Positions 16,665 to 38,012 of a stretch of 38,012 bases of DNA are shown one piece after another. The stretch is taken from IMG/VR virus record IMGVR_UViG_3300032229_000682, positions 1-38,012 of that record. One strand, given 5' to 3'. A program made the position numbers and the translations under genes. The DNA is from a virus. The number at the start of each line of letters is the position of its first letter. Within the stretch, counting starts at the first letter, position 1. The notes below the pieces were generated by a model. That model saw nothing but the letters and a program-made list of their open reading frames with translations, had not been told where the DNA came from and made no database searches.

Positions 16665-17312
16665 TTATGGACACGCAACAAAACTTGTTATCATTCCACT
16701 AGTGTCCACCTGAACCGCGTAATTATTACCTCCGAAAGTAAACTTGGTGAATCTATTATTACCATTGTATGGATTGAATAAAGATCCCCCGAAAGCTGTC
16801 TGATAAATCACAGCTCCGATAACAGGAACAGTATTTGCTTGACTTATATAGGTATAATAATTTACCGATGTAAAAGTATCACTACAAGTATTTGCTGAAG
16901 TAGGAAATGTGTTTTGACCAACCAAATGTAATCCAAAGTTTGGTGTAGTAGATGGTGTCGGAGTGAACGTAGGAGTTGTAGTCGGACTTAGAGTATTTGT
17001 AGGTGAAAGTGTTGGAGTATTTGTAGGAGTCTTAGTTATTGTAGGGGTGTTTGTGGGAGTCTTAGTTACTGTCGGAGTAACTGTAGATGTTGGTGTCGGT
17101 GTTATATAAATTACTTCTCCATCGATACAACCATTGTTGTCCTCAATTTTGATAACAATGTTTGTCTCATCATTAGGTGAGGGAACCGTAAAGGTGAAAG
17201 GAAAAGTTGAAACCGTTCCAACAGACACACAACTCGCACTAAATGCATTACAGTAATATACATCAACTGGTGTGTTTGCGGTTACTGAAGTTATTGTTAC
17301 TTGTCGACTCAT
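16665..17312 (-). CDS. Short Pro/Thr-stalk fibre protein
   Basis: A 215-residue protein with a 73-residue N-terminal domain, a Pro/Thr stalk (about 74-125) built of TPT, NTPT and LSPT units, and a C-terminal domain ending in Cys-Pro. The N-terminal domain is clearly related to that of the next gene (shared TPxDxYxC, SxFPxxF and IKxxDxNxCI), so both probably dock to the same virion site. A TATAAATA box lies eight bases before the ATG. Likely a minor fibre or decoration. Confidence 0.75.
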   Translation of the reverse strand: MSRQVTITSVTANTPVDVYYCNAFSASCVSVGTVSTFPFTFTVPSPNDETNIVIKIEDNNGCIDGEVIYITPTPTSTVTPTVTKTPTNTPTITKTPTNTPTLSPTNTLSPTTTPTFTPTPSTTPNFGLHLVGQNTFPTSANTCSDTFTSVNYYTYISQANTVPVIGAVIYQTAFGGSLFNPYNGNNRFTKFTFGGNNYAVQVDTSGMITSFVACP

Positions 17313-17320
17313 AATTTTTT

Positions 17321-17328
17321 TATTTATA
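17321..17328 (-). promoter_or_regulatory. Candidate T4-like late promoter box
   Basis: TATAAATA on the minus strand equals the T4 late-promoter -10 consensus and lies eight bases before the ATG at 17312. Weaker forms, TATACAAA before 24184 and TATAATAA before 16601, occur at comparable positions. In an AT-rich genome this can be chance. Confidence 0.35.
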
Positions 17329-20881: not shown

Positions 20882-20893
20882 TTCGAATTTTGT

Positions 20894-23800
20894 TTAACAT
20901 TGTGTTGATGATAATCCAGTTACAACACCTGATCCATTAAGATCCCAGTTTGCACCTTGGTGGAATACATATATCTCACTAACCACTGTTGTCAAATTAG
21001 AGTTGTCATATAATATACATCCCACATTTATCTCTGTACAGTTAGAATATAATGTCTTAGGGTTAATTATTGCGTCGGAACAAGCGTCGGCAACACTCAC
21101 ATTACTAACTCCGCTATTTCCAAATGTTCCGAGGTTAGCTGTTGCACAAGTGACACAATCAGTGTAGGTCTGACTCGGAACACCTGTAAAATAATTCCCT
21201 CCAAAGTTGATTGGAGTAACTTTTGGAGGAGCAATGTAAGATGTATTAAATTGCCCAACATAATACCAACAATTTCCGTTAGTATCTTTGAACACTTCAT
21301 TGACCGCAATAGTAAAACCAACTGGTTGTGTTTGAATTACTTGAGTAAAGCTTCCCACTCCCCCACCAATTCTGTTACAAGATTGATACACATACAAGAA
21401 GTTTGGTGTTGCCGATGGCGACGCAGTTATAGATGGTGTTGGAGTATTGGTAGCCGTTGGCGAACTTGTTTGTGTAGGGGTTGGAGGAGGTGTTGTTCCA
21501 ACGGTTGCGGTCTGAGATGGTGTCGCAGTTTGTGTAGCTGTCACACTTGGAGTAATTCCCGCAGTTGATGTTGGAGTATTGGTTGGCGTTGATGTCGTAG
21601 TTGGTGTTGGAGTTGGGATGGTGCTACAATATTCACAAGAAGCATATATCTGAGTGATAGCCCCCAAATTACTATTTGAAGATAAATTCTTATCGTCTCG
21701 AGTGTAAACTACGCATCGATTTACACCATTAACTTGAACAAACATTGTCATTCCAATAACCACAGGGGTTCCATCGAAAGACAGAGAATCTGCGGTATAG
21801 AATTCTTCCCCTGATCCACAATCCGTGAGAACTTTTACTGAAACACAACTGAAAGTTTGATCCATAATTCCATAGGTCACTACCCCTTCGATTGAAACGG
21901 TTTTAGTGAGAGTCACCGATGGAGTCAAAGTTACCGTTGGAGTTGAAGGATTATATCCACTCAGACTGAAATTAATACCAACTCCACTACAAAAATTTCC
22001 AGTTGGTGAAGGGGTTGGAGTTACTCCAAACGATGATATTGTAAAGTTTACGTCATCACAAGCTATACTTGGAGTTGGAGTTACAGGAGGAACGTAAGCA
22101 CAATCGAAATATGCGTCGAAGTCGAACGTCGAACAATCTATTGCGGTTGGAGTTGGTGTCGGACAAACCCCTCCACTGAAATCATTGGCTGAAATATCAG
22201 GACACTGAGATTTACAAGGGTAAGACCCTCTCAACAAACAAGAACCTCCCAATGATGTACTCAAACACCAATAATTACCAGTGTGGTAAATAACAGCAGA
22301 GGTCAAACCATCTCCAGAATAATATAACCTTGAGTTGTAAGTTCCTGCTACTTCATAATTTCCATTATACCCTGAAAAAGAAGGTAAAGTTGTATAGAAA
22401 CAAAAATCAGTAAATGCACATGCGGAAGGTGAAGGTGATACGGTTGGTGTTTGAGTTGGAGTAGGTTGTGGTGTGTTAGTAGGTGTTGGAGTCGGAACAC
22501 AAAATGAACAATCATCAAAATCAGGATCATTCAAATCAGGTCCACCTGGACCTGAGAATTCAACAAAACTATAACATTCTCCGTTATATAGATAAGCCGC
22601 TCCAAAGAATGCAGTATCTTCTTTTACGTTAGCATAAAATACCGATCCATTAGAACATTTATATAATAAAGCGGCAACATTAGATTCTGTAGGACAAACT
22701 GCGTCAGCGCATCCAGACGCGGTCTGAGTAAAACTGTATCCACCTCCATCATATAAAGCTCCTGCGCCAGTTGTTGCAACAACCGTTGCACATCCTTCAA
22801 ATTCAACTCCTCCACTTATATAATACACCAACCCTGGAGTTAGTGTCATCGGGATGTCAAAAAATCTGAATATATTTAAACTGTTTGTACAATCTTGGAA
22901 TTGGACAGTATAACCTGGAGTTTGTGTTGGTGTTGGAGTTTGAGTCGACGTTGAAGTATTTGTTGGAGTTTGAGTCGATGTTTGAGTTGGAGTTGAAGTA
23001 TTTGTTGGAGTTTGAGTCGATGTTTTAGTTGGGGTTTGGGTTGAAGTTTGAGTTGGTGTCCCTGTCGGTGTAGACGTATTAGTCGGTGTTTGGGTTGAAG
23101 TTTGACTTGGTGTTTGAGTTGGAGTTTGAGTAGGTGTTTCTGTAGGTGTAGATGTGTTAGTTGGTGTTTGTGTTGGAGTTTGAGTAGGTGTTTGTGTAAT
23201 AGTCTCAGTTGGTGTTTGTGTTGGAGTCTCGGTAGGTGTTGTTGTTGGAGTCTCGGTAGGTGTTGGTGATAACCCACTTGTTGATGTATTAGTCTGAGTA
23301 ACAGTCTGAGTTGGTGTCTGAGTTGATGTTTCTGTTGGAGTTGTGGTTGGGGTTTCTGTTGGCGTAGGGCTCAATCCCGAGGTTACGGTTGCACTTGGTG
23401 TCGCAGTTTGAGTAGGTGTTTCTGTTGGAGTAGCAGTCTGAGTTGGTGTTTCTGTTGGTGCAGGAGGATTACAGTCACATTGACTGTCAAGACAACTAAT
23501 CCCTAAATTGTTAAAATTACACGTATCACTAAGTATTGAAACAGCACAAAGTGTATAACATAAACCAGCATCTTCAGGTGGTATATTGAAATTTATTGTG
23601 TTGCCAAACTGGTTGATATATTGGACACTGCATCCTCCAAATGGAACTGAAGGTAAAATCCAGCATGTAGCAGTACTCAAAGTTTGAGTAGGAGTTAGTG
23701 TTGGTGTCGGAGTTGGAGTTTCAGTATTGGTTGGAGTTTGCGTTGGTGTTTGGTTAGTAGGTGTATTTGATGGTGTTTGGGGTGGGGTTGAATTTGGTGT

Positions 23801-24184
23801 TGGGTTTGGCGTTGGTGCTGGACCACAATCAACTTCAATATCATACGCATCGGTAGTAGGTGCACCTGGATCTGCTGGTCCAATAAGAATATCAACTGAA
23901 TATGACTTTGTATTATCGTATGTAATTGTTGAAAAAAAATACGAAGTTGGTCCACTCAGAGTTGCTCCCCAAGGTCCAGGGTAGGTTGCGAATCCTATCC
24001 ATCCAGAATTTTCAACAGGAGTTCCATCAATTTTGACTGTGAAATAATCAGGTCTTTCTATAGAACCAACTGTAATGTCAATAGAGGATCCGTTAGCCAA
24101 TCCCGTAAAGTCCAAGTCATAAACTTGGGTTATTGAATCAAACCCTGTATACCCACTATTTAAGATTGTACTACAACTCGACAT
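20894..24184 (-). CDS. Large Pro/Thr-stalk adhesin with multiple Cys-rich modules
   Basis: A 1096-residue protein. An N-terminal beta-rich domain (1-123) precedes alternating Pro/Thr stalks and Cys-containing globular modules. The main stalk, about residues 240-425, is almost wholly made of [10 protein letters not shown] and NTSTPT units. Other stalks lie near 124-170, 565-585, 855-930. The modules share a pattern such as Cys-Asp-Cys or FCFYTT with paired cysteines, but I do not recognise the domain. It has no signal peptide. It is the first gene of the minus-strand structural run, beside the divergent start of the glycosyltransferase operon. The Thr-rich stalks are the most obvious candidate substrates for the neighbouring O-glycosyltransferases. 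Confidence 0.75.
22910..23460 (-). repeat. Low-complexity Pro/Thr coding repeats
   Basis: About 550 bases consist of imperfect 18-24 base units that read GTTGGTGTTTGAGTTGGAGT or variants on the plus strand and encode TPTQTPTNT on the minus strand. The run is strongly G/T-skewed on the plus strand. Similar, shorter runs lie at 15880-15970, 16150-16310, 16950-17100 and 19280-19510. They favour slippage and recombination. Confidence 0.8.
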
Positions 24185-24516: not shown

Positions 24517-25458
24517 ATGAAAGAACCATTATTAGATTTACACTTATGTAAAGGACTCGGAGACACAATTTGTTCCACTCCATCTTTGAGAAAACTTTTT
24601 GACGTATACGGAAAAAGAATCTCTGTATTGACTGATTTCCCTCAGTTATTTAAAAACAACAAGTATGTAAATAAAATTTACAATACAGATAATTCCAATA
24701 GGGAGGAATTACAAGAAAATTATGAATTGCTAGTAAGTTTTGCCCCCAACTTAGAGAACAAATATGATCTCGGTTTGAGACATAACGTGATGGATATTAG
24801 ACAATTTCATGCCGCAGGTCTTGGATTTCAACTTTTACCCGAGGAGTGTCAAATGGATTTTTTCCCCGATGAATGGAAACCAATACCTGATCTACCTGAA
24901 AAATTTGTTGTGATACATCCCGTTCAATCTTGGCCATCAAGAACTTGGTCAGGAGAAAAATGGGTATTACTTACAACCATGTTGAACGATTATGGGATTT
25001 CAGTTATTTCGGTTGGTAGAACTTCCCACGAGGATGGGTTTCACCAAGTTCAAAAACCAATTTTTGATTTCCCAATTAGAGATGGATTGAATTTGATGAA
25101 CCTGACATCAATTTCTCAAACTTGGTGGTTAATACAAAAAAGTCTGGCAGTTGTTACAATGGATTCAGGCATTCTACATTTAGCAGGAACTACGGATGCA
25201 AATATTATTCAACTTGGTGGTTCGATAAACCATAAATTAAGGGCCCCTTACAGAAATGGTTCACAAGACTACAAATATCATTATGTCGATGGTGCTTGTA
25301 AAATCGCTTGTGCGTCTGATATGAGATATGGAGTGAAAGAATGGAATTCTATTCGAGGAATCCCTCCGTTGATTGGATGTTTGGAAAACAAATCAGAATT
25401 TGTTTGTCATCCAAACGTTATTCAAGTTTTCAATAAATTAATTGAAATTATTAAATAA
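24517..25458 (+). CDS. Glycosyltransferase family 9 (heptosyltransferase-like)
   Basis: A 313-residue GT-B enzyme of family 9, the group of ADP-heptose:LPS heptosyltransferases such as WaaC and WaaF. The N-terminal GLGDTICSTPSLRKL motif is at residues 14-28. The nucleotide-sugar binding half has VVIHPVQSWPSRTWSGEKW and TMDSGILHLAGTT. GT9 members usually have a His or Asp-rich GLGDxxxxTPxxxxL start as here. Three CxxC-like positions near the end (CKIACAS, GCLENK) are of unknown use. It is the first enzyme of the operon, its stop two bases from the next start. The donor is not determined; heptose is suggested by the TibC-like domain next door. Confidence 0.85.
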   Translation: MKEPLLDLHLCKGLGDTICSTPSLRKLFDVYGKRISVLTDFPQLFKNNKYVNKIYNTDNSNREELQENYELLVSFAPNLENKYDLGLRHNVMDIRQFHAAGLGFQLLPEECQMDFFPDEWKPIPDLPEKFVVIHPVQSWPSRTWSGEKWVLLTTMLNDYGISVISVGRTSHEDGFHQVQKPIFDFPIRDGLNLMNLTSISQTWWLIQKSLAVVTMDSGILHLAGTTDANIIQLGGSINHKLRAPYRNGSQDYKYHYVDGACKIACASDMRYGVKEWNSIRGIPPLIGCLENKSEFVCHPNVIQVFNKLIEIIK

Positions 25459-25459
25459 G

Positions 25460-28400
25460 ATGCCAGAAAGTTATAAATTTTATAAGGAGGAAGTAAGGGA
25501 TTTTATAATTGCAAACATTCCTTTGGACAGCAAGATTTTAGATGTTGGTCCAGGTAAAGGAACATATTCTGACTTATTAAGACAATTTGGTTATCAAATG
25601 GATTGTGTTGAAATTTGGGAACCATATGTTAAGGAATTTAATTTACAAGAAAAATATGACAACGTATTCATTGGAGACATATGTAATTTTGACTTCAGTG
25701 AATATGATTTTTTAATTTTAGGAGATGTACTGGAACATTTATCAGAACTTCAAGCAGTTGATTTGATTGATAGAATACACTCCAAATTCAAAACTTGCTT
25801 AGTTGCAGTTCCTTATTTAATGGAACAAGGTGAATACTTCGGGAATAAATATGAAACCCATCATCAACCTGATTTAACTCCTGAGGTAATGTCGTTAAGA
25901 TACCCCAAGTTAAAAATGATCTATTCAAATAATGAATACGGATATTATTTTACAGATAAAAATCAATCCAAGCCAGATAAAGCGTTTGTTTTATATTGCA
26001 CTGAAAATTATTTGGATGTTGTCACAATGTGTGTCAAATCAATCAGAAGATATAGTGGAATTCCAATTATAGTTTATTTGATTAACTCCAATAAAAAAAT
26101 AAATGTGGAAAACGTGACAGTTGTAAGATGGAATTGTGAAATTGATCAACTAGATAAAAATTCATATCTATCGGTTGGCGGCAATTTTTATATTGATAGG
26201 AAAAATCCAACAATATATAAAATTTTAATACAAAGACCTCTTATAATTAAAGACGCTCTTCAGAAATACGCTCATAATGTTTGCTATGTTGATAGTGATT
26301 CAGTCGCAACACCTTTAGTAGACACAATTTTTTATTACTATGACCGAACATCATTTTTTCCATATTTTGTCGAAGGTGTCTATGAATACCTTACTTATAA
26401 TGGGAGAGGTAAAGGAGGTCCTTTAGGTGGAGAATTATGTGATACGTTGGAACACAATGCTTGTGAACTTTTTGAGGTTGATCAGTCTGTCAGAAAATTA
26501 TATAGACAGACGGGTTACTTCGTTGCTGGACAAAATACTTTGGATTTCCTTGATGAATGGCATTGGATGTGCACACATCCGAAGATTCAACAAAACATCA
26601 GCCATTACGCCCCATATGATGAGGAAACAATCCTGAATGTTTTACTTTGGAAACGCAAAATAGACATCGGGCTTCCATACCTTTATGTCAACGGAACTTT
26701 AGGAACTGTTAAGAAGATGTTCACCGAAGTTGAGTATAAAGGCCCAGATGTTTTAAACTTTTTAGGGGATTGGTTAAGAGCTCCTGCAATCAAAGAACAA
26801 ATCCTATTTTTTCACGGAGAAAAAGATCCCGAAATAATGGAAATGATGATGCATGACATCCAAAAATATTTCTATATAAGAAAATACGAATATATTAAAC
26901 CTGAAAATAATTGGGGAGATATCGTATCAAAACATATTTTGACTCACTTTGCCGAAAAATCTTTAGACGATATGGATGTATTTCATTTCGATCCTGAAAG
27001 ACAAATGATTGAAAAAAATGGGAAAATTTTATCCGTAGGTAGTAACCTTTTATTTACGAAATCGAATGATTATGTGTGGGGGTCAGGGTGTTTAGACCCT
27101 TATAGTATTGGTGAAATACCACAAAAAGTTTATGCGGTTCGAGGTCCTCTAACAAGAAATTGTTTGTTGAAAAATGGGTGGGATGTTCCAAATGTATTTG
27201 GTGACCCCGCATTACTTTTTCCAAAAAAGTATAACCCGAGTTTTGAAAAACGATATAAATATGGAGTTGTTCCCCACTATTCAGATTTCAAATCAGATTC
27301 AAGTTTGAAAACAATTAACCACTTAGAAGATTTGGGGGTGAAAATTGTCAATATTACATCTGGTGTTTATGAGTTTATAGATCAATTATTAGAATGTGAA
27401 TTTATTTTATCCTCCAGTTTACACGGTTTAATTGTATCAGACGCTTATGGTATACCAAATCATTATGTGAATTTGGGTAATAATTTAATCGGAGGAGAAT
27501 TTAAATTTATGGATTATTTTGCTTCGGTGAATCGAGAATTTTATAATGCAACGATAGTTAATCCTGAATTTACATATAAATCATTTTCAGAATTAAATTT
27601 TGAAGTAAGTGATACTTCAATTTCTGAGAATTTATTGATAAACTCACCTTGGAACGACAGTAATAATGAGTTTTTTTCAGACAAGTTTTCCAAAAAACTC
27701 CGAATACTTTATTTGGCCCCACATTTATCGACTGGAGGAATGCCAGCATACCTATTGAAAAGAATCCAATCGTTACAAAAAAATTATCCAGAAATTGAAA
27801 TTTATGTTGTTGAATATTGTTTATACTCCTCGACATATACCGTTCAGCGAGATATTATCAGAAATATTATTCCCGACAATAGATTTTGGACTCTAAATTC
27901 ATTAGGTAATAACAATGACACCGATTCACTGAAATTAATTGACATCATCAAAAAAAATAATATCGATATTGTGCATGTGGATGAAATGTTAGAGGGGTTT
28001 GATTCATTTAACAAAGTTTCGGGAACTGTAATGAAAGCTCTGTATGATAATGATAGAACTTGGAGAATTGTGGAAACTTGTCACAACATTTGGTTCAAAC
28101 CAGAATTAATGAAAAAATATGATCCTGATGGTTATGCGTTTTGTACTCCATTTCATGAACAACAAACATTCAAAAATGTGTCTTCTCCAACTGAGGTAAT
28201 GGAATTTCCGATTGAAAATAAATTCAGAAATAAAGAAGATCAGACAAACGCGCAAATGGAATTGGACTTTGACCCAACAAAAATTCATGTATTGAGTGTT
28301 GGGCTATGGTCACAAGGAAAAAATCAAAAGGAAGCTATCGATATCGCAAGATATTTTCAATCTGAGGGAGTTGAATTCCATTTCGTGGGTAATCAAGCCC

Positions 28401-29869
28401 CAAACTTTGAGGAATATTGGAAACCATTAATGTTGAATTTACCTTCCAATGTTCATATTTGGGGAGAAAGAGGAGACATTGAAACATTTATGAAAGCTTC
28501 AGATGTTTTTATTTTCAATTCAACTTGGGAATGTAATCCATTAGTTGTGAGAGAAGCGGCTTCTTATGGATTAAAAATTATTTGCCGTAATTTACCACAA
28601 TACATGGAAATGTTTGATCCATTCATTGTAAATCTCGAAGAAGATTTGGAAAGAAATGTTCAAATATTACGAGATCTAATAAGTTCAGAAAGAAAATATA
28701 ATGAGACTAAAGGTTCTTTAGAGAAATTTGCAGATACTCATTATATTTTTTATAAAAAAATAATGTCTAATGAAATCAAAAAAAATAATATGATTGATCC
28801 AAATATTTCAATAACCCAATATTTTATTAACCAACCTTTCTTAGAAATCAAAGGAGAAAGTGATAGCGATTTTAGCATCATGTTGTTCGACGAAGAAAAT
28901 TATTGTCATTATCACAATGTCATTAAATCAAATCATTGGATAAAATTAAATAGACAATATTTTACCCGTTGGAGAACAAAAATATTTGAGAATGGAGATT
29001 TGATATATGATAAAACTTTAGACTATAAAGGACTTCGAGTTTTTATAAACTTCGATAGTAAATCTTTGGGTGACAATATTGCTTGGTTACCCTATGTTGA
29101 AAAATTTAGAGAAATTCATCAATGTGACGTTACAGTTTGCACTTATTGGAACAAGTTATTTAAGGATGTTTATCCGAATTTAGAATTTGTGGAACCTGGA
29201 AGTATAGTTCATGGTATATTTGGTCAATATAACCTCGGCTGGTTTTACGACATTAATAAAGAACCAGCTTTGCCGAACACAATTCCATTACAGAAAGCTG
29301 CAACAAACATATTAGGTTTACCATTTGAAGAAATTAGGCCAAGAATTTCATTCACCCCAAAAGATAACCCATATGATACAAAATATATTACAATTGCAAC
29401 CAACTCTACCGCTGGTTGTAAATTTTGGACAAGGGACGGATGGCAAGAACTAATAAATCATTTAACTTCCATCGGATATAAAGTGATCAATGTATCTAAG
29501 GAAGATAATGCATTCAATAATTGCGAAAAGATTTTTGACACATCTATTGAAAATACAATGAATGTTATTCATCATAGTGACTTTTTTATCGGTCTTTCAA
29601 GCGGATTGTCTTGGTTATCTTGGGCACTAGGAAAACACGTAGTCATGATTAGTAACTTCACAGAAAAAGATCATGAGTTTACTTCAAACTGCACAAGAAT
29701 TACAAATCCTAACGTATGTAATAGTTGTTGGAATAACGCTGATTTCACGTTCGATAAAGGCGATTGGAACTGGTGCCCTCTACACAAAGGGACTTCAAGG
29801 CAATTCGAGTGTCACACTTCCATCACATCAGAAATGGTAATAAATCAAATTAAAAATTTACTTGTATGA
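25460..29869 (+). CDS. Five-domain glycosylation enzyme with C-terminal TibC-type O-heptosyltransferase
   Basis: A 1469-residue fusion from the ATG at 25460. Domain 1 (about 1-165) is a class I methyltransferase with DVGPGKG at 28-34 and GDVLEHL. Domain 2 (about 170-460) is a GT-A-like transferase with a DSD metal motif at 278-280. Domain 3 (about 474-690) matches polysaccharide pyruvyltransferase (PF04230): NNWGD, VRGPLTR, FGDPALL, SSLHG. Domain 4 (about 747-1085) is a GT4-type transferase with LAPHLSTGGMPAY, SVGLWSQGK and CNPLVVREAASYG. Domain 5 (about 1115-1469) is a complete autotransporter O-heptosyltransferase (BAHT/TibC) with a beta-barrel, SLGDNIAWLPYVE, YNLGWF and HKGTSRQFEC. Cysteines 1420, 1423, 1439 and 1451 have the TibC iron-finger spacing. 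The stop overlaps the next start as ATGA. Confidence 0.88.
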   Translation: MPESYKFYKEEVRDFIIANIPLDSKILDVGPGKGTYSDLLRQFGYQMDCVEIWEPYVKEFNLQEKYDNVFIGDICNFDFSEYDFLILGDVLEHLSELQAVDLIDRIHSKFKTCLVAVPYLMEQGEYFGNKYETHHQPDLTPEVMSLRYPKLKMIYSNNEYGYYFTDKNQSKPDKAFVLYCTENYLDVVTMCVKSIRRYSGIPIIVYLINSNKKINVENVTVVRWNCEIDQLDKNSYLSVGGNFYIDRKNPTIYKILIQRPLIIKDALQKYAHNVCYVDSDSVATPLVDTIFYYYDRTSFFPYFVEGVYEYLTYNGRGKGGPLGGELCDTLEHNACELFEVDQSVRKLYRQTGYFVAGQNTLDFLDEWHWMCTHPKIQQNISHYAPYDEETILNVLLWKRKIDIGLPYLYVNGTLGTVKKMFTEVEYKGPDVLNFLGDWLRAPAIKEQILFFHGEKDPEIMEMMMHDIQKYFYIRKYEYIKPENNWGDIVSKHILTHFAEKSLDDMDVFHFDPERQMIEKNGKILSVGSNLLFTKSNDYVWGSGCLDPYSIGEIPQKVYAVRGPLTRNCLLKNGWDVPNVFGDPALLFPKKYNPSFEKRYKYGVVPHYSDFKSDSSLKTINHLEDLGVKIVNITSGVYEFIDQLLECEFILSSSLHGLIVSDAYGIPNHYVNLGNNLIGGEFKFMDYFASVNREFYNATIVNPEFTYKSFSELNFEVSDTSISENLLINSPWNDSNNEFFSDKFSKKLRILYLAPHLSTGGMPAYLLKRIQSLQKNYPEIEIYVVEYCLYSSTYTVQRDIIRNIIPDNRFWTLNSLGNNNDTDSLKLIDIIKKNNIDIVHVDEMLEGFDSFNKVSGTVMKALYDNDRTWRIVETCHNIWFKPELMKKYDPDGYAFCTPFHEQQTFKNVSSPTEVMEFPIENKFRNKEDQTNAQMELDFDPTKIHVLSVGLWSQGKNQKEAIDIARYFQSEGVEFHFVGNQAPNFEEYWKPLMLNLPSNVHIWGERGDIETFMKASDVFIFNSTWECNPLVVREAASYGLKIICRNLPQYMEMFDPFIVNLEEDLERNVQILRDLISSERKYNETKGSLEKFADTHYIFYKKIMSNEIKKNNMIDPNISITQYFINQPFLEIKGESDSDFSIMLFDEENYCHYHNVIKSNHWIKLNRQYFTRWRTKIFENGDLIYDKTLDYKGLRVFINFDSKSLGDNIAWLPYVEKFREIHQCDVTVCTYWNKLFKDVYPNLEFVEPGSIVHGIFGQYNLGWFYDINKEPALPNTIPLQKAATNILGLPFEEIRPRISFTPKDNPYDTKYITIATNSTAGCKFWTRDGWQELINHLTSIGYKVINVSKEDNAFNNCEKIFDTSIENTMNVIHHSDFFIGLSSGLSWLSWALGKHVVMISNFTEKDHEFTSNCTRITNPNVCNSCWNNADFTFDKGDWNWCPLHKGTSRQFECHTSITSEMVINQIKNLLV

Positions 29870-30540
29870 ATTTAGAAAATTTTATATGGGAACCTAAATG
29901 TTACAATGGGTTTCAAGAAACCGTAACTAAAGAAATTTTTCAAGATAAAATCTACGAAAGATTTTTCGAAGTCGAAGAAGGTGATATCGTTTTCGATATA
30001 GGAGCTAGTTTGGGCCCATTTACTTTTTCGATTTTAGATCGAAATCCAAAACATGTTTTTTGTTTTGAGCCAAGTTTTGAAGAATTCAAGACATTGGTAA
30101 TGAATACAAGACATGGAAACGTCACACATATAAACAAAGGGATATCTGATAAAATCGGCAAATTTGATTTTAAATTTGTATTTGAAAATACAAACAATGA
30201 TGTCTTATATTCAACAACTTTCCAAAAAGTTATTGAAGATTATAATATACAAAAAATCGACTTTTTGAAAACTGATTGTGAAACAGGTGAATACGACATA
30301 TTCACAGTCGAAAATTTATTTTGGATAAAAAATAATGTGAAAAAAATAGTTGGGGAATGGCATTTAGGCGAACCTTGGATGAAATCCAAATTCACTGTTT
30401 TCAGGGATTTATATTTACGAGTTTTCCCTAATTTCAAAATTATTTCATTCGATGGAGTTGATATTACTAATCAAATTTGGGATGAAAACTTCATACCATA
30501 CTATCGAGAAATTATGATTTATATTGACAATAGAAATTAA
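29866..30540 (+). CDS. FkbM-family methyltransferase
   Basis: A 224-residue AdoMet-dependent O-methyltransferase of the FkbM family (PF05050). The AdoMet loop reads VFDIGASLGPFTFSIL near residues 42-57, followed by CFEPSFEEF and the FkbM-typical IDFLKTDCETGEYD near 135-148. Members of this family methylate sugar hydroxyls in glycans and secondary metabolites. Its ATG overlaps the stop of the large glycosylation enzyme, so it is translationally coupled to it. The likely role is capping sugars added by that enzyme; the exact substrate is unknown. Confidence 0.85.
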   Translation: MNLENFIWEPKCYNGFQETVTKEIFQDKIYERFFEVEEGDIVFDIGASLGPFTFSILDRNPKHVFCFEPSFEEFKTLVMNTRHGNVTHINKGISDKIGKFDFKFVFENTNNDVLYSTTFQKVIEDYNIQKIDFLKTDCETGEYDIFTVENLFWIKNNVKKIVGEWHLGEPWMKSKFTVFRDLYLRVFPNFKIISFDGVDITNQIWDENFIPYYREIMIYIDNRN

Positions 30541-30553
30541 ATAAAATTAATTC

Positions 30554-31039
30554 ATGAATCTTAATATGGATAAAATTATTTGGTATGAATTTGATAAATT
30601 TTCCGAATTCCAAATTATTGAAATAAATTCATATAATTTGTCCATTTCCAAAATTGATTATCACAACTATATCTTGTTTTTAGATAAAATACAAATTTCA
30701 ATTGATAAATTCAATTCACAAATCAAATGGGATGGAATGTGGGATATATCGGAAGCAAAAAAAAGATTACACAAAAATGATTCACTATATCTATTATCCA
30801 AGATGAATTTACCAATAGGTCATGTTTGGTATACTGGCGAATATCTTTACAATGCATTTGTATCTAACGAACGTATTCACGGAGAATCCCAATGGTTCAT
30901 TCAACAGACAATGTTAGATAGATATAAATCAGGTCATAATCAGATTGTTCTTTATACCGAAGAATTCAATCATCGCGCCGTCAATTTTTGGGAAAAACTA
31001 GGTTTCAATCGAGTCAAAAAAATAAAAACTTTAGATTAA
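30554..31039 (+). CDS. GNAT-family N-acetyltransferase
   Basis: A 161-residue protein with GNAT features in its C-terminal half: the beta4 segment IGHVWYTGEYLYNAFVSNE, then an acceptor helix WFIQQTMLDRY and the beta5/alpha4 region IVLYTEEFNHRAVNFWEKLGF. The pyrophosphate loop is atypical (RIHGES in place of Q/RxxGxG). An alternative start is Met5. It ends the plus-strand operon and its 3' end overlaps the opposing SGNH gene by nine bases. It may acetylate an amino sugar or a protein; which one cannot be read from sequence. Confidence 0.75.
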   Translation: MNLNMDKIIWYEFDKFSEFQIIEINSYNLSISKIDYHNYILFLDKIQISIDKFNSQIKWDGMWDISEAKKRLHKNDSLYLLSKMNLPIGHVWYTGEYLYNAFVSNERIHGESQWFIQQTMLDRYKSGHNQIVLYTEEFNHRAVNFWEKLGFNRVKKIKTLD

Positions 31040-31840
31040 ACTACCATATTTGGGGATGTAATTTTCAAAATTATCTTTTATATGTTTCAAAAGTAATTTA
31101 GAGTATTTACGATTATGATTTGGTCCTGGATGAACATTATCAGTGCCCATATCTGTAAATTTTCCGTATCCCCCATCAAAACGATTATATTCATCGTATA
31201 TTGAAGGCACCCCCAACCACCCATTCCACAACCAATTACAATTTTTTGTTTGTAAAAAATATTTTATCAGGAGATGATTTTTATACCAATTCATAAAGTC
31301 TTCATTATCATTTTGAATTGAAATCAAATTTTTTTGTAATTCAATACCTTCTTCAGTTTCCTCGGTATACCCCCATTGGCACGTTGCCATAAAAGGGATT
31401 AAACCATTATCATTTGTGTAATATTCCCTCCTATGGGGAGATGTATACATAATAAGAACTAAGTCTGGATTTATTAAATCATAAAAGGATAACAGAGTTC
31501 TACAAATAAAATCGTTACTTCTCCCTCCCATACCAAAATTAATGTTAACACCATTAGGAATCAATCTACTAAATTGATATGACCATGTGTCCTCATAATT
31601 TACTCCAACACCTTCTGTGTTTGAATCACCAACGCACATTATTTTGAATCCTTGGTTTGTTATGGGATTTCCTCGGAATCCTAACTCATTGTATTTGTAA
31701 ATACATAAACCAGATTGATCTGACCCAGATGTACTAAGGGTTTTGTTTTTCCTATTATTTAACTCAGAGTCATATCCCGAAGTTTCAAATCTATTACAAT
31801 CCCAATATTTCAAATTTTCAATTATATTATACTGACCCAA
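31031..31840 (-). CDS. SGNH/GDSL-type hydrolase
   Basis: A 269-residue esterase-like protein. Block I is CVGDSNTEG with nucleophile Ser73. Block II is FGMGGRSND (Gly105/106, Asn109). Block V is DNVHPG with Asp234 and His237. The N-terminal YKYNELGFRGN stretch resembles that found before the GDS motif in many glycan-modifying SGNH enzymes. It may be an O-acetylesterase or transferase acting on glycans of the fibres or on the host surface. It is last in the minus-strand operon, converging on the acetyltransferase gene without a visible terminator. Confidence 0.8.
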   Translation of the reverse strand: MGQYNIIENLKYWDCNRFETSGYDSELNNRKNKTLSTSGSDQSGLCIYKYNELGFRGNPITNQGFKIMCVGDSNTEGVGVNYEDTWSYQFSRLIPNGVNINFGMGGRSNDFICRTLLSFYDLINPDLVLIMYTSPHRREYYTNDNGLIPFMATCQWGYTEETEEGIELQKNLISIQNDNEDFMNWYKNHLLIKYFLQTKNCNWLWNGWLGVPSIYDEYNRFDGGYGKFTDMGTDNVHPGPNHNRKYSKLLLKHIKDNFENYIPKYGSLI

Positions 31841-31852
31841 CTTTGAATAATA

Positions 31853-32677
31853 TTAAATGAAAGTTTTATTTTGGTTGAAATGATTAGTTAAAGGATTCCC
31901 GTCCCAAATTGATTCAAATTTTTTTGGAGTATTATTTTCAACTAATTCAGGACGATACAATTTTAACCAATCAAAAATTTTTTTTGCAATATATTCATAA
32001 CCCTTTTCATTAGGATGGTCACAAACTATTGATTTCATATGAAGATTATCGGAATAATCAGGTAAAATACCATTTTCAAAATTCATGAAATTTGTGGTGT
32101 CATACATGTTTTCAAAAAATCTAAACCTTTTACTAGAAAGAGTGGTATAAAGAAAATTATATTTCTTAAATTTACAATGTTCTTCAAATATTTTGAGATA
32201 AAAAATTTGTTCTAATACTGTATCATATTCGATATTTTTAATAAATTTGACATATTCTTGTCCTAAATCATATGAATCGGTATTGAAAAAATATTTACGT
32301 GTGTATGGAATAATATTTTTTATTGAGGAGTCTCTATAAAACGAAAATCTGCTCGGTTCGGGAAGTAACCAAATTACCAATACATCATATTCATTTATAA
32401 AAGTTTTATTATAATATTTTTCGAACCAAACTTTCAGGTTACCCGAAGTTGAGGACCCACCGAATCCTAAATTAATTAATAAATCATAGTTCAAATGTTT
32501 CTGAAGTATAGACGGCCAAGAATATTTATGAAACCGTTCACGATTCATACTATAAACTTCCGATCCTTTTTTGTGTGTGACCACATCAATCATATCGGAA
32601 GGCAAAGTTTCAGGGTCATAACACCCTACCCCCTCGGTTAATGAACACCCTAACGTTATTAATAATTTTTTTTTCAT
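31853..32677 (-). CDS. Second SGNH-like hydrolase with GCS in place of GDS
   Basis: A 274-residue protein in the SGNH fold. The nucleophile motif reads TLGCSLTEGVG, so Ser12 is present but the usual Asp is Cys. Block II is NLGFGGSSTSGN, block III may be WLLPEPSR, and the end carries CDHPNEKG with a likely catalytic His221. It overlaps the upstream oxygenase gene by four bases and lies 12 bases before the other SGNH gene. The pair may be ancient duplicates, since both have a GxGxG-rich block II, but sequence similarity is modest. Substrate unknown. Confidence 0.7.
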   Translation of the reverse strand: MKKKLLITLGCSLTEGVGCYDPETLPSDMIDVVTHKKGSEVYSMNRERFHKYSWPSILQKHLNYDLLINLGFGGSSTSGNLKVWFEKYYNKTFINEYDVLVIWLLPEPSRFSFYRDSSIKNIIPYTRKYFFNTDSYDLGQEYVKFIKNIEYDTVLEQIFYLKIFEEHCKFKKYNFLYTTLSSKRFRFFENMYDTTNFMNFENGILPDYSDNLHMKSIVCDHPNEKGYEYIAKKIFDWLKLYRPELVENNTPKKFESIWDGNPLTNHFNQNKTFI

Positions 32678-33123
32678 ATAAATTGTCTTGGGATATTGAT
32701 GTTAAGAGGGTTATTTAACATAAATCCAATAAGAGTATATCTATTACCAATACAATTATTAACTTTATGTTTTTCTTCTCCACTAAAATATATCATATCA
32801 CCAATCTTAGGTTTATATTCAATTTTTTCAAAAAAAACTTCTCCTCCTTCAAAATCATCATTTAGAAAAATAATAAAAGACCACGGATTCAAATGTGAAT
32901 GAGGTCTTTCAATTTGGTTTATAGTTTCATTTACCATTTGTACTCTGAACTTTTTGAAAGAAAATGTGTCAAACTTATTGACATTTAGATTCTTACCCAT
33001 CAAATCTACAAAATAAAATTTATAAACATCATCACCAATGTAGTCCATTTTTTCCTCATTAAACATTTCAAGGAAATATTTAACTTCTTCATTTGTTAGA
33101 AAAGATGGAATATACTTTACCAT
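32674..33123 (-). CDS. 2OG-Fe(II) oxygenase-like protein, HxH variant
   Basis: A 149-residue protein from the ATG at 33123 (a TTG two codons upstream is less likely). The fold signature is clear: PHSHLNPWSFIIFLNDDF, EGGEVFF, YKPKIGDMIYF, then KHKVNN and GNRYTL. Ligand candidates are His75 and His77, the distal His119, and Arg128 for 2-oxoglutarate. The usual HxD aspartate is replaced by His. Prolyl 4-hydroxylases share this fold. It is one of four such genes in a row and starts two bases past the stop of the next one. It may hydroxylate proline or another residue in fibre proteins. Confidence 0.75.
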   Translation of the reverse strand: MVKYIPSFLTNEEVKYFLEMFNEEKMDYIGDDVYKFYFVDLMGKNLNVNKFDTFSFKKFRVQMVNETINQIERPHSHLNPWSFIIFLNDDFEGGEVFFEKIEYKPKIGDMIYFSGEEKHKVNNCIGNRYTLIGFMLNNPLNINIPRQFI

Positions 33124-33125
33124 TA

Positions 33126-33653
33126 TCAAAATAATTTTAGTTCTACCCCCAATTCTTTATACGTTATAAAGTATACAAAAGAATATCTTACACCTTTTGT
33201 GATTTCAGTAACTTCATGAATGACCTCGGAATCCATTTTATATAAATTCCCGACCTCAACCGCCAACTCTCCATCAGGATCATAGGTAATAAGTCTACCA
33301 CCCTCAAAATCATCATTTAATTTTGCTCCAACAACAAGAGCCCAATCGTTTTGTCTTTCTTTATCTACATGTTTGGTAAATTTACCTCCAGTAAAAAATT
33401 CATGGGCATAAAAATAATTACCTTCTTTAATTTTATTATTCGGATAATCATCCATCAAAAATTCTGAAATCAAATCAAAAAACCATTGTGTAGATTCTTC
33501 TCGTTTAACTTCACAAATGTTATAATCCAATCTTGATTTATGTAATCCCGCAGGTGAACATACATCTGGACAATATCTGACGTTAGATTTACCAAAATAC
33601 GAAATCCATGATATGATTTCACCGCATTGTTCATTTGTCAATTTCATATTCAT
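33126..33653 (-). CDS. 2OG-Fe(II) oxygenase (prolyl hydroxylase-like)
   Basis: A 175-residue dioxygenase with the full ligand set: His95-Val-Asp97 in FTKHVDKE, His146 in SEVIHEV and Arg156 in KGVRYSFV. The core NDDFEGGRLITY and AVEVGNLYKM is typical of P4H-type enzymes. It should couple decarboxylation of 2-oxoglutarate to hydroxylation of a substrate. Start ATG at 33653 overlaps the stop of the upstream oxygenase gene by one base. Given Pro/Thr-rich fibres nearby, protein-bound proline is a plausible substrate, but that is inference. Confidence 0.85.
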   Translation of the reverse strand: MNMKLTNEQCGEIISWISYFGKSNVRYCPDVCSPAGLHKSRLDYNICEVKREESTQWFFDLISEFLMDDYPNNKIKEGNYFYAHEFFTGGKFTKHVDKERQNDWALVVGAKLNDDFEGGRLITYDPDGELAVEVGNLYKMDSEVIHEVTEITKGVRYSFVYFITYKELGVELKLF

Positions 33654-34195
33654 TATATTATTTCTTGTGGTAACATTAAATCACTTTTTTTAGCCCAAAA
33701 TACCATAGAGTATCTAACTCCTTCCGTCACTTCACTAACCCAATGTGGTAATTTTGAATCAAAACTAACGCAATTTCCACGGGAAGAGTTAGCGAGATAG
33801 TTTTCAAACATTAAGTCTCCACCAATATAAGATCCAATATCAGACAACTGGAAAATATATGATCGATATCGTTCTCCTCTTTCCTTATCTCCAGAATCAT
33901 AATTAAGAATGTTATTATCCCTGTGGACAGGAAAAGAATCACCAACAACATATTTCCTAACTAATAGGTTATGGACTTGCTCTTCATTTGAGAATATAAA
34001 AGGTTTGAGGTTTAATTCAGGAAAAATTGAAAAAAACTCTTCGGGAATATCTTCATGAGATACTAACCCCTCCTGTCCGCATCTTCCATATCTTTTTCCC
34101 CGTTCGATAACATCTAAAACTCCACTTTCAAAATATTGAATAAAGTAGTCACATAAACTCGGGCTCAACAAGATTTTTTCTTCAATTAATTTCAT
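33653..34195 (-). CDS. 2OG-Fe(II) oxygenase (prolyl hydroxylase-like)
   Basis: A 180-residue dioxygenase. The iron ligands are His91-Arg-Asp93 in FPVHRDNN and His151 in KLPHWVSEV; Arg161 in EGVRYSMVFW should bind 2-oxoglutarate. The double-stranded beta-helix strands YIFQLSD and IGGDLMFEN lie between. It resembles the 175-residue neighbour (both have xVTEGVRYS-like ends), so the two are likely paralogues from duplication. It overlaps the upstream oxygenase gene by four bases. Confidence 0.85.
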   Translation of the reverse strand: MKLIEEKILLSPSLCDYFIQYFESGVLDVIERGKRYGRCGQEGLVSHEDIPEEFFSIFPELNLKPFIFSNEEQVHNLLVRKYVVGDSFPVHRDNNILNYDSGDKERGERYRSYIFQLSDIGSYIGGDLMFENYLANSSRGNCVSFDSKLPHWVSEVTEGVRYSMVFWAKKSDLMLPQEII

Positions 34196-34773
34196 ATGAT
34201 TTGTTTTTCTATTTTTTTTTGATCGAATATATCAATACAAAAACTTCCAGCATAAACTATTCTCTTTTTTTCTGAGTTTGGTGTTGGTATCGCAGTATGT
34301 CTTATATCACCAGGAAAAATGAAAATATCCCCAACTTCAGGTAAAAATTTATGTCTTTGTTTATTTTCGTCTTCAAATACTATACATCCTTCATCTCCAG
34401 TTATTTCATCTGTCGTTTGTAAATAAAAAGTGAAAGTATAATCTGACAATATGTTTGACCTACCAGGAGGGTGAACTTGGATATGTTGATGCATCCATTC
34501 TAAGTTAAATGCCTTCCTTTGAGTATAAACCCAATAATGTTGAGCGTAATTGATAAATTTTTTATTAGTGATACTTTCTATTTGTTTTTTTATATATGAG
34601 TTTACTGATTGGAAACACTCTGTTTCAATTTCAATCCACACCGAATTATCATTAGTGTGTATCGCCATTCTATCATTTAAATCAACATACTTCAAAAATT
34701 CCTCAATAGAATATTCGTTATTATATCTACCTACGTATATTGTAAACTTTTCAGATAATTTTATTGGGGTCAT
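34192..34773 (-). CDS. 2OG-Fe(II) oxygenase-like protein, HxH type
   Basis: A 193-residue protein resembling the 2OG-FeII_Oxy_5 type of phage dioxygenase. It has MHQHIQVHPPG (His95, His97, His101), TFTFYLQT, GCIVFEDE, LPEVGDIFIFPGDIRHTAIP (His159) and KKRIVYAGSF (Arg171). The first ligand motif is HxH rather than HxD. It overlaps the methyltransferase gene upstream and the next oxygenase gene downstream by four bases each, so all are translated from one message. Substrate unknown. Confidence 0.75.
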   Translation of the reverse strand: MTPIKLSEKFTIYVGRYNNEYSIEEFLKYVDLNDRMAIHTNDNSVWIEIETECFQSVNSYIKKQIESITNKKFINYAQHYWVYTQRKAFNLEWMHQHIQVHPPGRSNILSDYTFTFYLQTTDEITGDEGCIVFEDENKQRHKFLPEVGDIFIFPGDIRHTAIPTPNSEKKRIVYAGSFCIDIFDQKKIEKQII

Positions 34774-35372
34774 ATGACAGATGTGGGAGATTTGAATTTT
34801 ATAACTCCATTTCCTTTTTGAAAATTCCCATTTTTAAAATATGTCCAATTAATCGTATGAGTTGGAGCGACTATTTTTGTAAATTTATGTGGCTCAACTT
34901 TATATTCATAATAATTTAACTCATTTTGTTTTTTAAATGTAAAATAATTGAAAATAGATAAAATACAATTGTCATTCGCAATAGTTTTACAATAATCTTC
35001 AAATTTTTCGTAGTTAACGTCATCATGTGTATCCATGAATATACCATCAAACTTTTGATTAAGTCTCGGAATTACTTCAACCCAATCTCCAAATATAATA
35101 GTTACATTTGATTTATTTTTAGCCCATTCTTGAGCCTTTTCATAAATCTGTGGATTAATTTCAATACAAGTATAGTGATTAGCCAAACTACTCATTTCAT
35201 TTGCTGAAAATCCCATACCAAACCCAACATCTAAAACATTCCCTCCATTTTGACAAACTATATATGAATACATTTCCATCAAAGACTTTGAAGCAGCATC
35301 CATAACCACAGATCTCGGGTTATTTTTGAAATGAATGTTTTTTTCCGTAAAAACGACCACTTCATTTTTCAT
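34770..35372 (-). CDS. Methyltransferase similar to guanidinoacetate/arginine N-methyltransferases
   Basis: A 200-residue class I AdoMet-dependent methyltransferase. The cofactor loop NVLDVGFGMGFSANEM is at residues 45-60, the acidic strand CIEINPQIYE at about 70-80, and FDGIFMDTHDD near 110-120 is followed by NYEKFEDYCK and ILSIFNYF. LDVGFGMG and the DGIxxDT pattern are typical of GAMT and the related fungal Rmt2 protein-arginine delta-methyltransferase. A protein or small guanidino substrate is therefore possible. It lies in the oxygenase operon, 12 bases after the SET gene. Confidence 0.75.
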   Translation of the reverse strand: MKNEVVVFTEKNIHFKNNPRSVVMDAASKSLMEMYSYIVCQNGGNVLDVGFGMGFSANEMSSLANHYTCIEINPQIYEKAQEWAKNKSNVTIIFGDWVEVIPRLNQKFDGIFMDTHDDVNYEKFEDYCKTIANDNCILSIFNYFTFKKQNELNYYEYKVEPHKFTKIVAPTHTINWTYFKNGNFQKGNGVIKFKSPTSVI

Positions 35373-35384: not shown

Positions 35385-35816
35385 TTATAGTAAATCTTTT
35401 TTGTCAAATCTCTCATACCTACCGTAATTACTTAGTAATTCTTCCCCCTTATAAATTATTCGATTAGTTAATAGTGTATCTTTATCTATGTTGGACTTAT
35501 CGAATCCGCTATTTATAAAATAATATGGTGTAGTATAAATCCAATGGCATCCTTGAGTAAGTTTCACATAAGTATGGGTATCTGTTGGAAATTCGGGACC
35601 ATACAAGAATATGTCTTTAATATGAGTATATAATTCTTGAGGTAATAAAAGTAGTTCAGATTCTGATATCGGATATATACCTGTCTTCCCATTCCAAATT
35701 TCAAATGGATTTGTTCTACTTGGAATATCTTTCAATGCAAATACACCGATACCCTGAATTCTACTCGGTTTTAGCTTAACAAATATTTTTGTAGAAATAT
35801 ACTCAAAAGGTGTCAT
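35385..35816 (-). CDS. SET-domain protein (putative lysine methyltransferase)
   Basis: A 143-residue protein that is nearly all SET domain. The start has KPSRIQGIGVFALKDIP (GxG near residues 22-24). The pseudoknot region has YYFINSGFDKSNID and KGEELLSNYGRY, matching the usual NHSxxPN and GEELxxxY motifs with Ser-Gly in place of His-Ser. SET enzymes methylate protein lysines. SET proteins occur in large phages and in plant and algal viruses, and virion or host targets are possible. It starts in the stop codon of the 47-residue gene (TAATG). Confidence 0.8.
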   Translation of the reverse strand: MTPFEYISTKIFVKLKPSRIQGIGVFALKDIPSRTNPFEIWNGKTGIYPISESELLLLPQELYTHIKDIFLYGPEFPTDTHTYVKLTQGCHWIYTTPYYFINSGFDKSNIDKDTLLTNRIIYKGEELLSNYGRYERFDKKDLL

Positions 35817-35965: not shown

Positions 35966-38012
35966 TTATTTGTTATGAACTAAAATTTTATTTGCAAAAA
36001 AGTTATGGTTTTCAGAAACATTAAGTAAATTAAATACGGTAAACTCTTTCTCATATTGTTTAACGTCAACAATCATACTCTCCATGTCATCGTCTCTTAA
36101 ACATATGTCTCCAACAATTAAACTTTTGGCATCCACCCAACCTCTACTTTTTACAAAAAATGGATGTTCAGATGTTGTTGTAATTGTATCAACATTATTG
36201 AAAGATATGTCAATTACATCTTTAACAGTGTGAGATTTTAAATCGCCAACAATCCCCTCCTCACAGATTTTCAAGTTTTCATTATAACTCATAACTTTTT
36301 CCCCCACACTGATGTCTTCAATGTTTTTATATTCTCCATTTGGTAATGTTATTTTTGTTCCAGCAATAAAACAACGATTATGTACTAGTAAATCGTTTGC
36401 GAAGAAATTATGATTATTTTCTACCGTTTTAACATTATACACAGTTGTAGGTTCATCAATTATTTCTATCGAAACAATAGTTGACACATTACCATTTATT
36501 CTCAAAATTTTTACTCCTACTTCTGATCCAGTAGTTTTCAATTTATAAACATTGAATGTGTATTGTGGATCCATCGAAATCCATCCATTGTTAGGTGAAT
36601 ATAATGGATGATCTAAGGTTGATTCCAAAATAGAGTCGTCATCAAAAGTGTATTTAACTATCTTATCAACTTTTCTAGAACCAACACCTCTCACTTTTTG
36701 TTTTTCAACAGTTGATGTGTTAAAATTATAAGATAACACTACATCTCCGATTTCCACATTTTCAACATTTTTATGAGATTCATCGGACATGGTAATTTTA
36801 GTTCCTGAGACAAAACAAGGTGCATTGTGAGAAATTACTCCATTAAAAGGGGTCGACCCACTAATAATGTAAGTATCCGTGTCTTCAGCATCAAGTTCTA
36901 TCATTTTCAATTCAGTTTCACTTGTTACGTAAAAATTAACATCATCAATAGCAATTAAGTTGCCGTCGATATCGAACAAATAATCGATTCCAGGTTTTAA
37001 ATAAACTGAAAGTTTATATTTTGATAGATCGTTTACTGAATCATAAACCAAAAAATGTTTATTTGGACCTATGAATTTAGATTCGGAATCAACTATAATT
37101 TCTATGATTCCACCATATTTAAGTTGTTTTTCATCTTTGAACACCACTTCAGAAGAAGTTAAAACAGATCCAGTTGGGAAATATTGTCCTTCGAATGTCC
37201 AGTTCATAATTTGGGAATTGATCTCGACTTGTGGTGAACCAGAAATAAAAAAAGATTTTATAGATTCCCCAACATTAACATCACCAATAGGCTTGTATGT
37301 TTCATCATTCATCAAAATATTATGAGTCGACAACAAACCTCCACAGTCTAATTTGATGAAGTTTGTAGTATATTCATAATAATGATGATCAGGTAATTTA
37401 TTTACGTAAAGACTTTGATCTATTTCGTTCGAAATGTTGTTTGGAAGTTCAAATATTGAACTAATTTTATAATTATGTAACGTTAATACATTTAAATTAC
37501 TACTACCATAAACAATGTGAAAACTTCGTATAGAAGTTACATGTCCATCATTATCCAAACTTGATGGTCCAAAATGATATTGTTGGACAATTTTATGTTC
37601 TGTGTCAACTGAATTCAAAAAAGAATCCCATCTATTTACATCCGATTCCGTTTCATTGTTACCTCCAATTTTATAAAAATCAATGGGGTTAAATTTTTCA
37701 ACAATGTCTTTTATCGCTACATCAGGTACGTTAGATTGGTTTATTGTGGATTCCAATGTATTATACGATCCATCTGTTGATGAATAATAGTAAGAAACCA
37801 CCCGAGAAGACTCGTTATTAGATGCGAATAAATTGAGAAGCTCTACAGTGCCCTTACAATAGATACTATCAAATAATGCTGATTCATCGTAAGCAAGTCG
37901 TAGAATAAATTTATCACTTGAATCCATAATTGAAATTGGATATATCGCATTAATGTCTTCATCGTGTAAATTTATTGTGGTTATTGATTGGGTATTTGCT
38001 GAAATCGTATTG
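35966..38012 (-). CDS. Protein with three tandem C-terminal Hint (intein/hedgehog-like) domains, 5' partial
   Basis: The reading frame is open from the window edge to the TAA at 35966. An ATG at 37927 exists, but the frame upstream is coherent sense (ITTINLHDEDINAIYPISIM), so the gene starts beyond the window. Counting from that ATG, residues 1-194 show a possible structural domain. Hint 1 runs 195-368 (Cys195 to His367-Asn368), Hint 2 371-517 (Cys371 to His516-Asn517), and Hint 3 519-652 (Cys519 to His651-Asn652), with a single Lys after it. Hints 2 and 3 have CF(V/I)xGTKIT, a TxxH block, and NHNFFAN. No Cys, Ser or Thr follows any HN, so cleavage is more likely than splicing. Confidence 0.9.
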   Translation of the reverse strand, partial: NTISANTQSITTINLHDEDINAIYPISIMDSSDKFILRLAYDESALFDSIYCKGTVELLNLFASNNESSRVVSYYYSSTDGSYNTLESTINQSNVPDVAIKDIVEKFNPIDFYKIGGNNETESDVNRWDSFLNSVDTEHKIVQQYHFGPSSLDNDGHVTSIRSFHIVYGSSNLNVLTLHNYKISSIFELPNNISNEIDQSLYVNKLPDHHYYEYTTNFIKLDCGGLLSTHNILMNDETYKPIGDVNVGESIKSFFISGSPQVEINSQIMNWTFEGQYFPTGSVLTSSEVVFKDEKQLKYGGIIEIIVDSESKFIGPNKHFLVYDSVNDLSKYKLSVYLKPGIDYLFDIDGNLIAIDDVNFYVTSETELKMIELDAEDTDTYIISGSTPFNGVISHNAPCFVSGTKITMSDESHKNVENVEIGDVVLSYNFNTSTVEKQKVRGVGSRKVDKIVKYTFDDDSILESTLDHPLYSPNNGWISMDPQYTFNVYKLKTTGSEVGVKILRINGNVSTIVSIEIIDEPTTVYNVKTVENNHNFFANDLLVHNRCFIAGTKITLPNGEYKNIEDISVGEKVMSYNENLKICEEGIVGDLKSHTVKDVIDISFNNVDTITTTSEHPFFVKSRGWVDAKSLIVGDICLRDDDMESMIVDVKQYEKEFTVFNLLNVSENHNFFANKILVHNK

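Follow-up and report, generated by a model that had tools for sequence, protein, structure and literature searches.

Unrelated enzymes encoded in a stretch of viral DNA share a short C-terminal tag and cluster round a single protein, which we call the hub. The stretch is IMG/VR virus record IMGVR_UViG_3300032229_000682 from position 1 to 38,012 (hereafter the window), a 38 kb record that is probably a fragment. On its minus strand, four open reading frames (ORFs) lie end to end at positions 32674–34773, with overlaps of 4, 1 and 4 bases, and encode 2-oxoglutarate (2OG)-Fe(II) oxygenases that are part of a bigger array of tailoring enzymes. The original prediction had recognized these four oxygenases and had tied them to proline-rich tail stalks encoded by the same phage; it missed the SET-domain protein, the methyltransferase and the two SGNH hydrolases of the same cassette, their shared C-terminal tag and the upstream oxygenases of relatives. 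We consider it about evenly balanced whether these genes form a phage tailoring-enzyme array that is addressed by the common tag and gathered round an ATP-grasp/Hint hub, as we favour, rather than a system dedicated to hydroxylating stalk prolines.

Examination of the protein ends in the window reveals the pattern. A hydrophobic dipeptide at the carboxyl terminus ends all eight enzymes of the minus-strand cassette, compared with 1 of 24 other genes (p = 9e-7). Specifically, in order of position, these are two SGNH/GDSL hydrolase-like proteins of 269 residues (31031–31840, ending PKYGSLI, with a convergent gene next to it) and 274 residues (31853–32677, ending NQNKTFI); oxygenases D (32674–33129, 151 residues, NIPRQFI at 32677–32697), C (33126–33653, 175 residues, GVELKLF at 33129–33149), B (33653–34195, 180 residues, MLPQEII at 33656–33676) and A (34192–34773, 193 residues, KIEKQII at 34195–34215); an S-adenosylmethionine (SAM) methyltransferase of 200 residues (34770–35372, KSPTSVI); and a SET-domain-like protein of 143 residues (35385–35816, FDKKDLL). 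The start of oxygenase D can be placed at a TTG, giving 151 residues, or at an ATG, giving 149. The hub itself, at 35966–38011 on the same strand, is truncated at its 5′ side where the contig stops; an ATP-grasp-like N-terminal domain is followed by two Hint/intein-like domains, and the protein is untagged.

Since the motif had first been seen and only then put to a test, loci anchored on the hub served as a partly independent check. A search with an alignment of the hub N-terminal domain returned 139 viral stretches, of which 80 were kept; the non-redundant phage loci with a hub number 57. The gene immediately next to the hub was tagged in 46 of 53 cases (87%), and the genes at positions +2 to +5 were tagged in 75, 74, 68 and 55%. 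On the other side of the hub, 58, 53 and 47% of genes were tagged at positions −1 to −3, with about 20% beyond 12 genes. By comparison, the background is 26 of 350 random viral ORFs (7.4%), and 2.5% among the replication-region genes of this lineage. A stricter definition of the tag gives 40 of 53 genes next to the hub versus 7 of 372.

The association with the hub is also seen when a single enzyme family is followed: oxygenase homologues were tagged in 29 of 30 cases with a hub in the locus, but in only 4 of 67 without one (p = 3e-19), and two of those four (locus L197) lie on a contig that bears a hub elsewhere (L312). Within hub loci, the tag is found on 123 of 126 oxygenases, 25 of 25 radical SAM proteins, 12 of 12 tryptophan halogenases, 11 of 11 RmlD-like proteins, 35 of 37 and 20 of 20 members of two sulfotransferase-like groups, and 9 of 9 members of a methyltransferase cluster; it is also found on 19 of 22 proteins of the SET cluster and 39 of 52 of the main SGNH cluster. 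Pfam families among the tagged proteins further include PF13759, PhyH, Asp/Asn hydroxylase, carbamoyltransferase and GNAT. Few or no tags occur on the hub (1 of 58) and on many other protein clusters, for which the count is 0. A separate group of Cys-rich proteins of about 95 residues adjoins the hub (for example L336:9674–9964 and L339:7324–7602); 17 of 17 are tagged, and the one that was scanned had no Pfam match.

Across 384 tagged ORFs, the consensus is approximately K-x-x-K-[S/T/K/N]-[L/I]-[I/L]-COOH, with K at 35% in column −7, K at 47% in −4, S or T at 47% in −3, L at 66% in −2 and I at 66% in −1; columns −2 and −1 are hydrophobic by selection, and the other columns are free of that selection. 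The commonest endings are KSLI, KTLI, KTLL and KSII. In principle, such a pattern could be a DNA signal, either part of the region where the following gene starts or a joint formed by recombination of cassettes, and the tight gene overlaps, the variability of the cassettes between relatives and a modest excess of ATA at the terminal Ile over gene bodies (0.65 versus 0.49) are all consistent with this. However, the Leu codons of the tag are used near background (TTA 0.67 versus 0.61, with all six codons represented), and the position of the motif is fixed relative to the stop codon whether the genes overlap, are separated by gaps of 0–40 or of more than 40 bases, or form one of a few convergent pairs. 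Gene-like codon use and a position fixed to the stop codon argue for a signal at the peptide level, and we regard a DNA signal as highly improbable.

To what would such a peptide be addressed? The simplest candidate is the hub or a partner of it. In relatives it is conserved as MKGTLFSADFVKD...LELNTDT..., and the window copy (35966–38011) lacks roughly 80 N-terminal residues while its two Hint domains are present. The N-terminal domain was modelled on the relative L003 (53 sequences, predicted local distance difference test (pLDDT) score 88), as the window copy lacks its N-terminus. Foldseek matched this model to YgiC and glutathione synthetases (E = 8.5e-6, probability 1.00, template modelling (TM) score 0.39), and residues D9, E22-x-N24, R109 and K172 are invariant in 53 relatives. 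A sequence search of solved structures with the hub returned nothing useful, and no relative of the hub was found among 50,697 phage records or 84,980 bacterial and archaeal genomes. The tandem Hint domains of the window hub end in VHN right before the last residue, an arrangement that would permit self-cleavage or thioester chemistry.

ATP-grasp enzymes ligate carboxylates to amines, which raises the idea that the hub is a ligase that joins the free carboxylate of the tag to an amine, which would fasten the tagged enzymes to the hub, the virion or a glycan. The resemblance of the hub fold to YgiC and glutathione synthetase fits this, as does the fact that conservation of the tag is highest at its last residues. 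However, binding of the tag with no ligation is just as conceivable, catalysis by the hub is putative, and the Hint domains point instead to self-cleavage; we therefore consider a ligase of this kind very unlikely.

The mechanism that we favour is simpler. The tag would bring the enzymes together, and the simplest way for it to do so would be to bind the hub or one of the hub's partners; the gathered enzymes would then make several oxidations, methylations and acyl changes on one product. Genes for glycosyltransferases, sugar-nucleotide enzymes and fibre-like proteins adjoin the array, so this product may be a surface glycan or a glycosylated adhesin of the virion or of the infected cell, a step of which we are less sure. 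In its broadest form, to which we give somewhat less than even weight, the proposal is a peptide-address system in which the tag recruits swappable, non-homologous enzymes to the hub, or attaches them covalently via the ATP-grasp ligase, and thereby builds and diversifies a surface product one enzyme at a time.

Several observations weigh against this proposal. The binding of tag to hub is inferred, and any product, substrate or host of the array is putative. The hub-anchored test is independent in part only, because contigs or lineages are common to some hub loci and the loci in which the motif was first seen. Genes with a gap of over 40 bases to their neighbour, among them those that end an array, are tagged in 45% of cases, and the tags vary, as MLPQEII and GVELKLF illustrate. 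On the side of the hub, the TM-score of the predicted ATP-grasp match is low (0.39), its putative catalytic residues are deduced from conservation, and a Hint-like pattern was found on just 73 of 106 redundant hub ORFs.

Should the tag be an address, a virus would have in it a modular route for adding enzymes: a protein that gains about seven residues joins the assembly line. This would help to explain the strong variation of the cassette between related phages, and the tag would offer a simple sequence handle for finding undescribed phage tailoring enzymes and might be put to use in constructing enzyme assemblies. Taken alone, the oxygenases add to a known superfamily; the new part is the tag-and-hub organization. 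Its novelty rests on the tag and the hub together, for which no counterpart turned up in the phage, genome and open-access paper collections searched; the literature covered was open-access papers only, so a description elsewhere is possible.

The enzymatic class of the four oxygenases is supported, and here the assignment in the original prediction to the prolyl-hydroxylase type was correct, as judged from family profile matches and the fold of modelled oxygenase A. Matches to PF13640 reach 38.2 bits for B and 27.6 for D, above the cut-off of 27, and 26.2 for C and 21.0 for A, below it; A is PF13640/PF13759-like. The phage profiles PHROG 61, 81 and 2297 match the four oxygenases with E values of 7e-8 to 3e-15, and PHROG 61 and 81 support C and A. 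The Fe- and 2OG-binding residues take the form HxD..H..R in B (HRD) and C (HVD) and HxH..H..R in A and D (HSH in D), and they are kept in relatives. The AlphaFold model of A, the most divergent of the four (34 sequences, pLDDT 91), has a prolyl-hydroxylase-type fold with disordered last residues; the double-stranded beta-helix fold is judged from this protein, the one oxygenase modelled. Good fold matches of the model are the Pseudomonas putida prolyl 4-hydroxylase (P4H), PBCV-1 vCPH and PHD2, with E values for the P4H type of about 2e-6. For B and C, the nearest solved sequences are PKHD-type PiuC hydroxylases, with P4H matched weakly at E of about 0.2. We also considered oxygenase A as FlmC and rejected this, since the NCBIfam match is far under its cut-off.

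The original prediction held that four such genes in a row next to such stalks are notable. Near the hub they are ordinary: at least one oxygenase is present in 55 of the 57 non-redundant hub loci, with a median of 3, and 17 loci have at least four. The pelagiphage HTVC008M likewise has four consecutive oxygenase genes, gp069–gp072.

What might these enzymes hydroxylate? Pro-rich repeats are substrates of plant and viral P4Hs, and the four enzymes had been proposed to be prolyl hydroxylases for Thr-Pro-Thr (TPT) stalks, producing glycoproteins rich in hydroxyproline like those of plants. The phage does encode proteins rich in Thr-Pro (TP). On the minus strand there are a TP-rich protein of 829 residues (14112–16601, 15 TPT), another of 215 residues (16665–17312, 9 TPT), a TP-linker protein of 1185 residues with DUF285 and DUF5122 repeats (17324–20881, 17 TPT) and a TP-rich stalk protein of 1096 residues (20894–24184, 69 TP and 49 TPT) that is linked to the oxygenases by proximity only. 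Together, these four ORFs (14112–24184) contain 237 Pro, 127 TP and 90 TPT, so that the description of hundreds of prolines in TPT context was overstated. Calling the oxygenases neighbours of the stalks was likewise too loose, because, although encoded by the same phage, the stalks are 8.5 kb away, beyond a plus-strand glycosyltransferase block.

The co-occurrence of stalks and oxygenases across phages bears directly on this idea, and for the most part the link fails, leaving the stalks not established as the substrate. Among 50 stalk contigs picked by a TPTQ DNA pattern, the records being fragments, PF13640 matched 4, versus 2 of 39 random contigs, a set with less sequence; the array profile matched 4 of 50 versus 0 of 39. 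By PF13640 or the array profile, no oxygenase was found in 45 of the 50 stalk contigs, and the strongest matches to oxygenases of the tagged type were in the two contigs that hold an ATP-grasp/Hint hub. Conversely, the stalk pattern was not found in 41 of 50 oxygenase-array (hub) contigs, fragments included, and among distant oxygenase homologues a TP-rich ORF lay within 10 kb in 1 of 68 loci, that one being a relative of the window phage. At the scale of whole contigs, a looser stalk pattern was enriched in 9 of 50 hub contigs versus 0 of 74 others (p = 1.8e-4), a comparison confounded both by lineage, as 5 of the 9 hubs are 51–57% identical to the L003 hub, and by the greater length of hub contigs relative to controls; in the remaining 4 of the 9, the stalk is at least 27 kb away. 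Moreover, the number of oxygenases between the SET and SGNH genes is 4 in the window, L003 and L007, 2 in L261 and 1 in L198, yet TP stalks remain on the L261 and L198 contigs. Stalks and the oxygenase array thus overlap in some lineages, and neither needs the other.

Hydroxylation of the stalks retains points in its favour, namely the P4H-type fold and family, the fact that this phage encodes both TPT stalks and glycosyltransferases, and the whole-contig enrichment. However, stalks and arrays are each mostly found without the other, stalks stay while the number of oxygenases changes, and B and C are closest to PiuC hydroxylases rather than to P4Hs, so we judge it unlikely that the oxygenases serve the stalks. 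Under the tag-addressed array that we prefer, the oxygenases would possibly hydroxylate sugar, lipid or peptide parts of the array product; stalk prolines are a possible target that we do not favour.

The genes around the array bear on a different explanation, in which the oxygenases modify intermediates, nucleotide sugars or glycans, that neighbouring sugar genes produce and the tag is unrelated to this, serving for example enzyme stability. One scan yielded five relative loci, four of them from nearly the same phage and one on a contig of 326 kb. Relatives preserve the order SET, methyltransferase, A, B, C, D; in L261 just the relatives of A and D are left, and in L198 a single, different oxygenase replaces them. 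Upstream in relatives are further oxygenases (L003:70–681 and 4866–5378), a NodU-type carbamoyltransferase, an RmlD-like protein and an apparent split thiamine-enzyme pair. The RmlD-like protein and the NodU-type carbamoyltransferase partner a tagged 170-residue oxygenase in two phage lineages, and in L011 and L012 some 30 kb of apparent sugar-nucleotide, SGNH and glycosyltransferase genes lead to a (GTS)n fibre-like protein (named by eye). Both the partnership and the continuation of sugar-nucleotide-type genes over tens of kb support an action on sugar intermediates, and Iyer et al. 2021 (PMC7824862) interpret similar cyanophage clusters as serving polysaccharide decoration or metabolite synthesis. 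This explanation nevertheless leaves unaccounted for a single tag on non-homologous enzymes mainly near the hub, and we regard it as a possibility on the doubtful side. The far end of the sugar-gene region in L012 (11889–15338) encodes a long collagen-like (GTS/GTD/GSS)n repeat protein, the end of which reads as an S74-type chaperone domain.

The tagged repertoire extends beyond the window: tagged enzymes of relatives include radical SAM, tryptophan halogenase, sulfotransferase-like, carbamoyltransferase and RmlD-like types, and carbamoyltransferase, 2OG oxygenase, halogenase and methylase all occur among hub-linked loci, across loci rather than shown in one. No halogenase was found in the window. 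Between the stalks and the array, the plus strand of the window carries a glycan block (24517–31039) that is mostly untagged and contains a GT9 glycosyltransferase, a methyltransferase/glycosyltransferase fusion of 1475 residues that ends in NLLV, an FkbM methyltransferase and a GNAT protein. The fusion (25442–29869) has methyltransferase, pyruvyltransferase-like and glycosyltransferase domains, and its counterpart in L261 has 1914 residues. Shine-Dalgarno motifs precede 2 of 32 gene starts in the window, as in Bacteroidota-type translation; together with a GC content of 34%, a weak match to SprB and strong matches to DUF285, their scarcity hints at a Bacteroidota host but does not show it. 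A role in defence was considered and rejected, since PADLOC returned just a generic CRISPR-associated 2OG model and a methyltransferase match.

Iyer et al. 2021 (PMC7824862) describe related enzyme repertoires in jumbo cyanophages. The S-SSM6a cluster described there, compared by description, resembles the hub arrays in combining several 2OG oxygenases with a tryptophan halogenase, carbamoyltransferases and methylases; the passages of that paper considered here contain no mention of a tag or of this hub. In the cultured pelagiphage HTVC008M, the cluster gp069–gp079 includes the run of four oxygenases, which lies between baseplate and head-tail genes; the four genes span NC_020484.1 57442–59681 (L343:7665–9904), a further oxygenase lies beside a tryptophan halogenase, and no TP-rich protein was found in the 29 kb examined. 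Despite this similarity, among three cultured phages, HTVC008M, P-SSM2 and S-H38, those oxygenases and halogenases that were checked are untagged apart from chance-like endings, such as one HTVC008M oxygenase that ends in IV without the basic and polar context of the tag, and no hub was detected in these phages.

At the level of the individual enzymes, the oxygenases resemble the PF13640 superfamily (P4H and the PKHD-type PiuC/YbiX) in fold, as seen for A, in profile matches and in the HxD..H..R residues of two of the four, and they differ in the HxH of the other two and in their tagged C-terminal extension. PBCV-1 vCPH, also a viral P4H-type oxygenase, is among the best fold matches of A, but identity is only 13–14%, and a collagen-type substrate for the window array would be hypothetical. 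Searches of 29 hub-bearing phage records for the PDZ families PF17820 and PF13180, as phage-encoded docking domains for the tag, found none, host PDZ proteins lying outside this search. Encapsulin cargo-loading peptides and PDZ ligands are short C-terminal addressing peptides, and the arrangement seen here is similar to both in that one short C-terminal peptide is common to unrelated proteins. The sequence of the tag is different from that of encapsulin cargo peptides; its terminal S/T-x-hydrophobic pattern resembles that of class I PDZ ligands.

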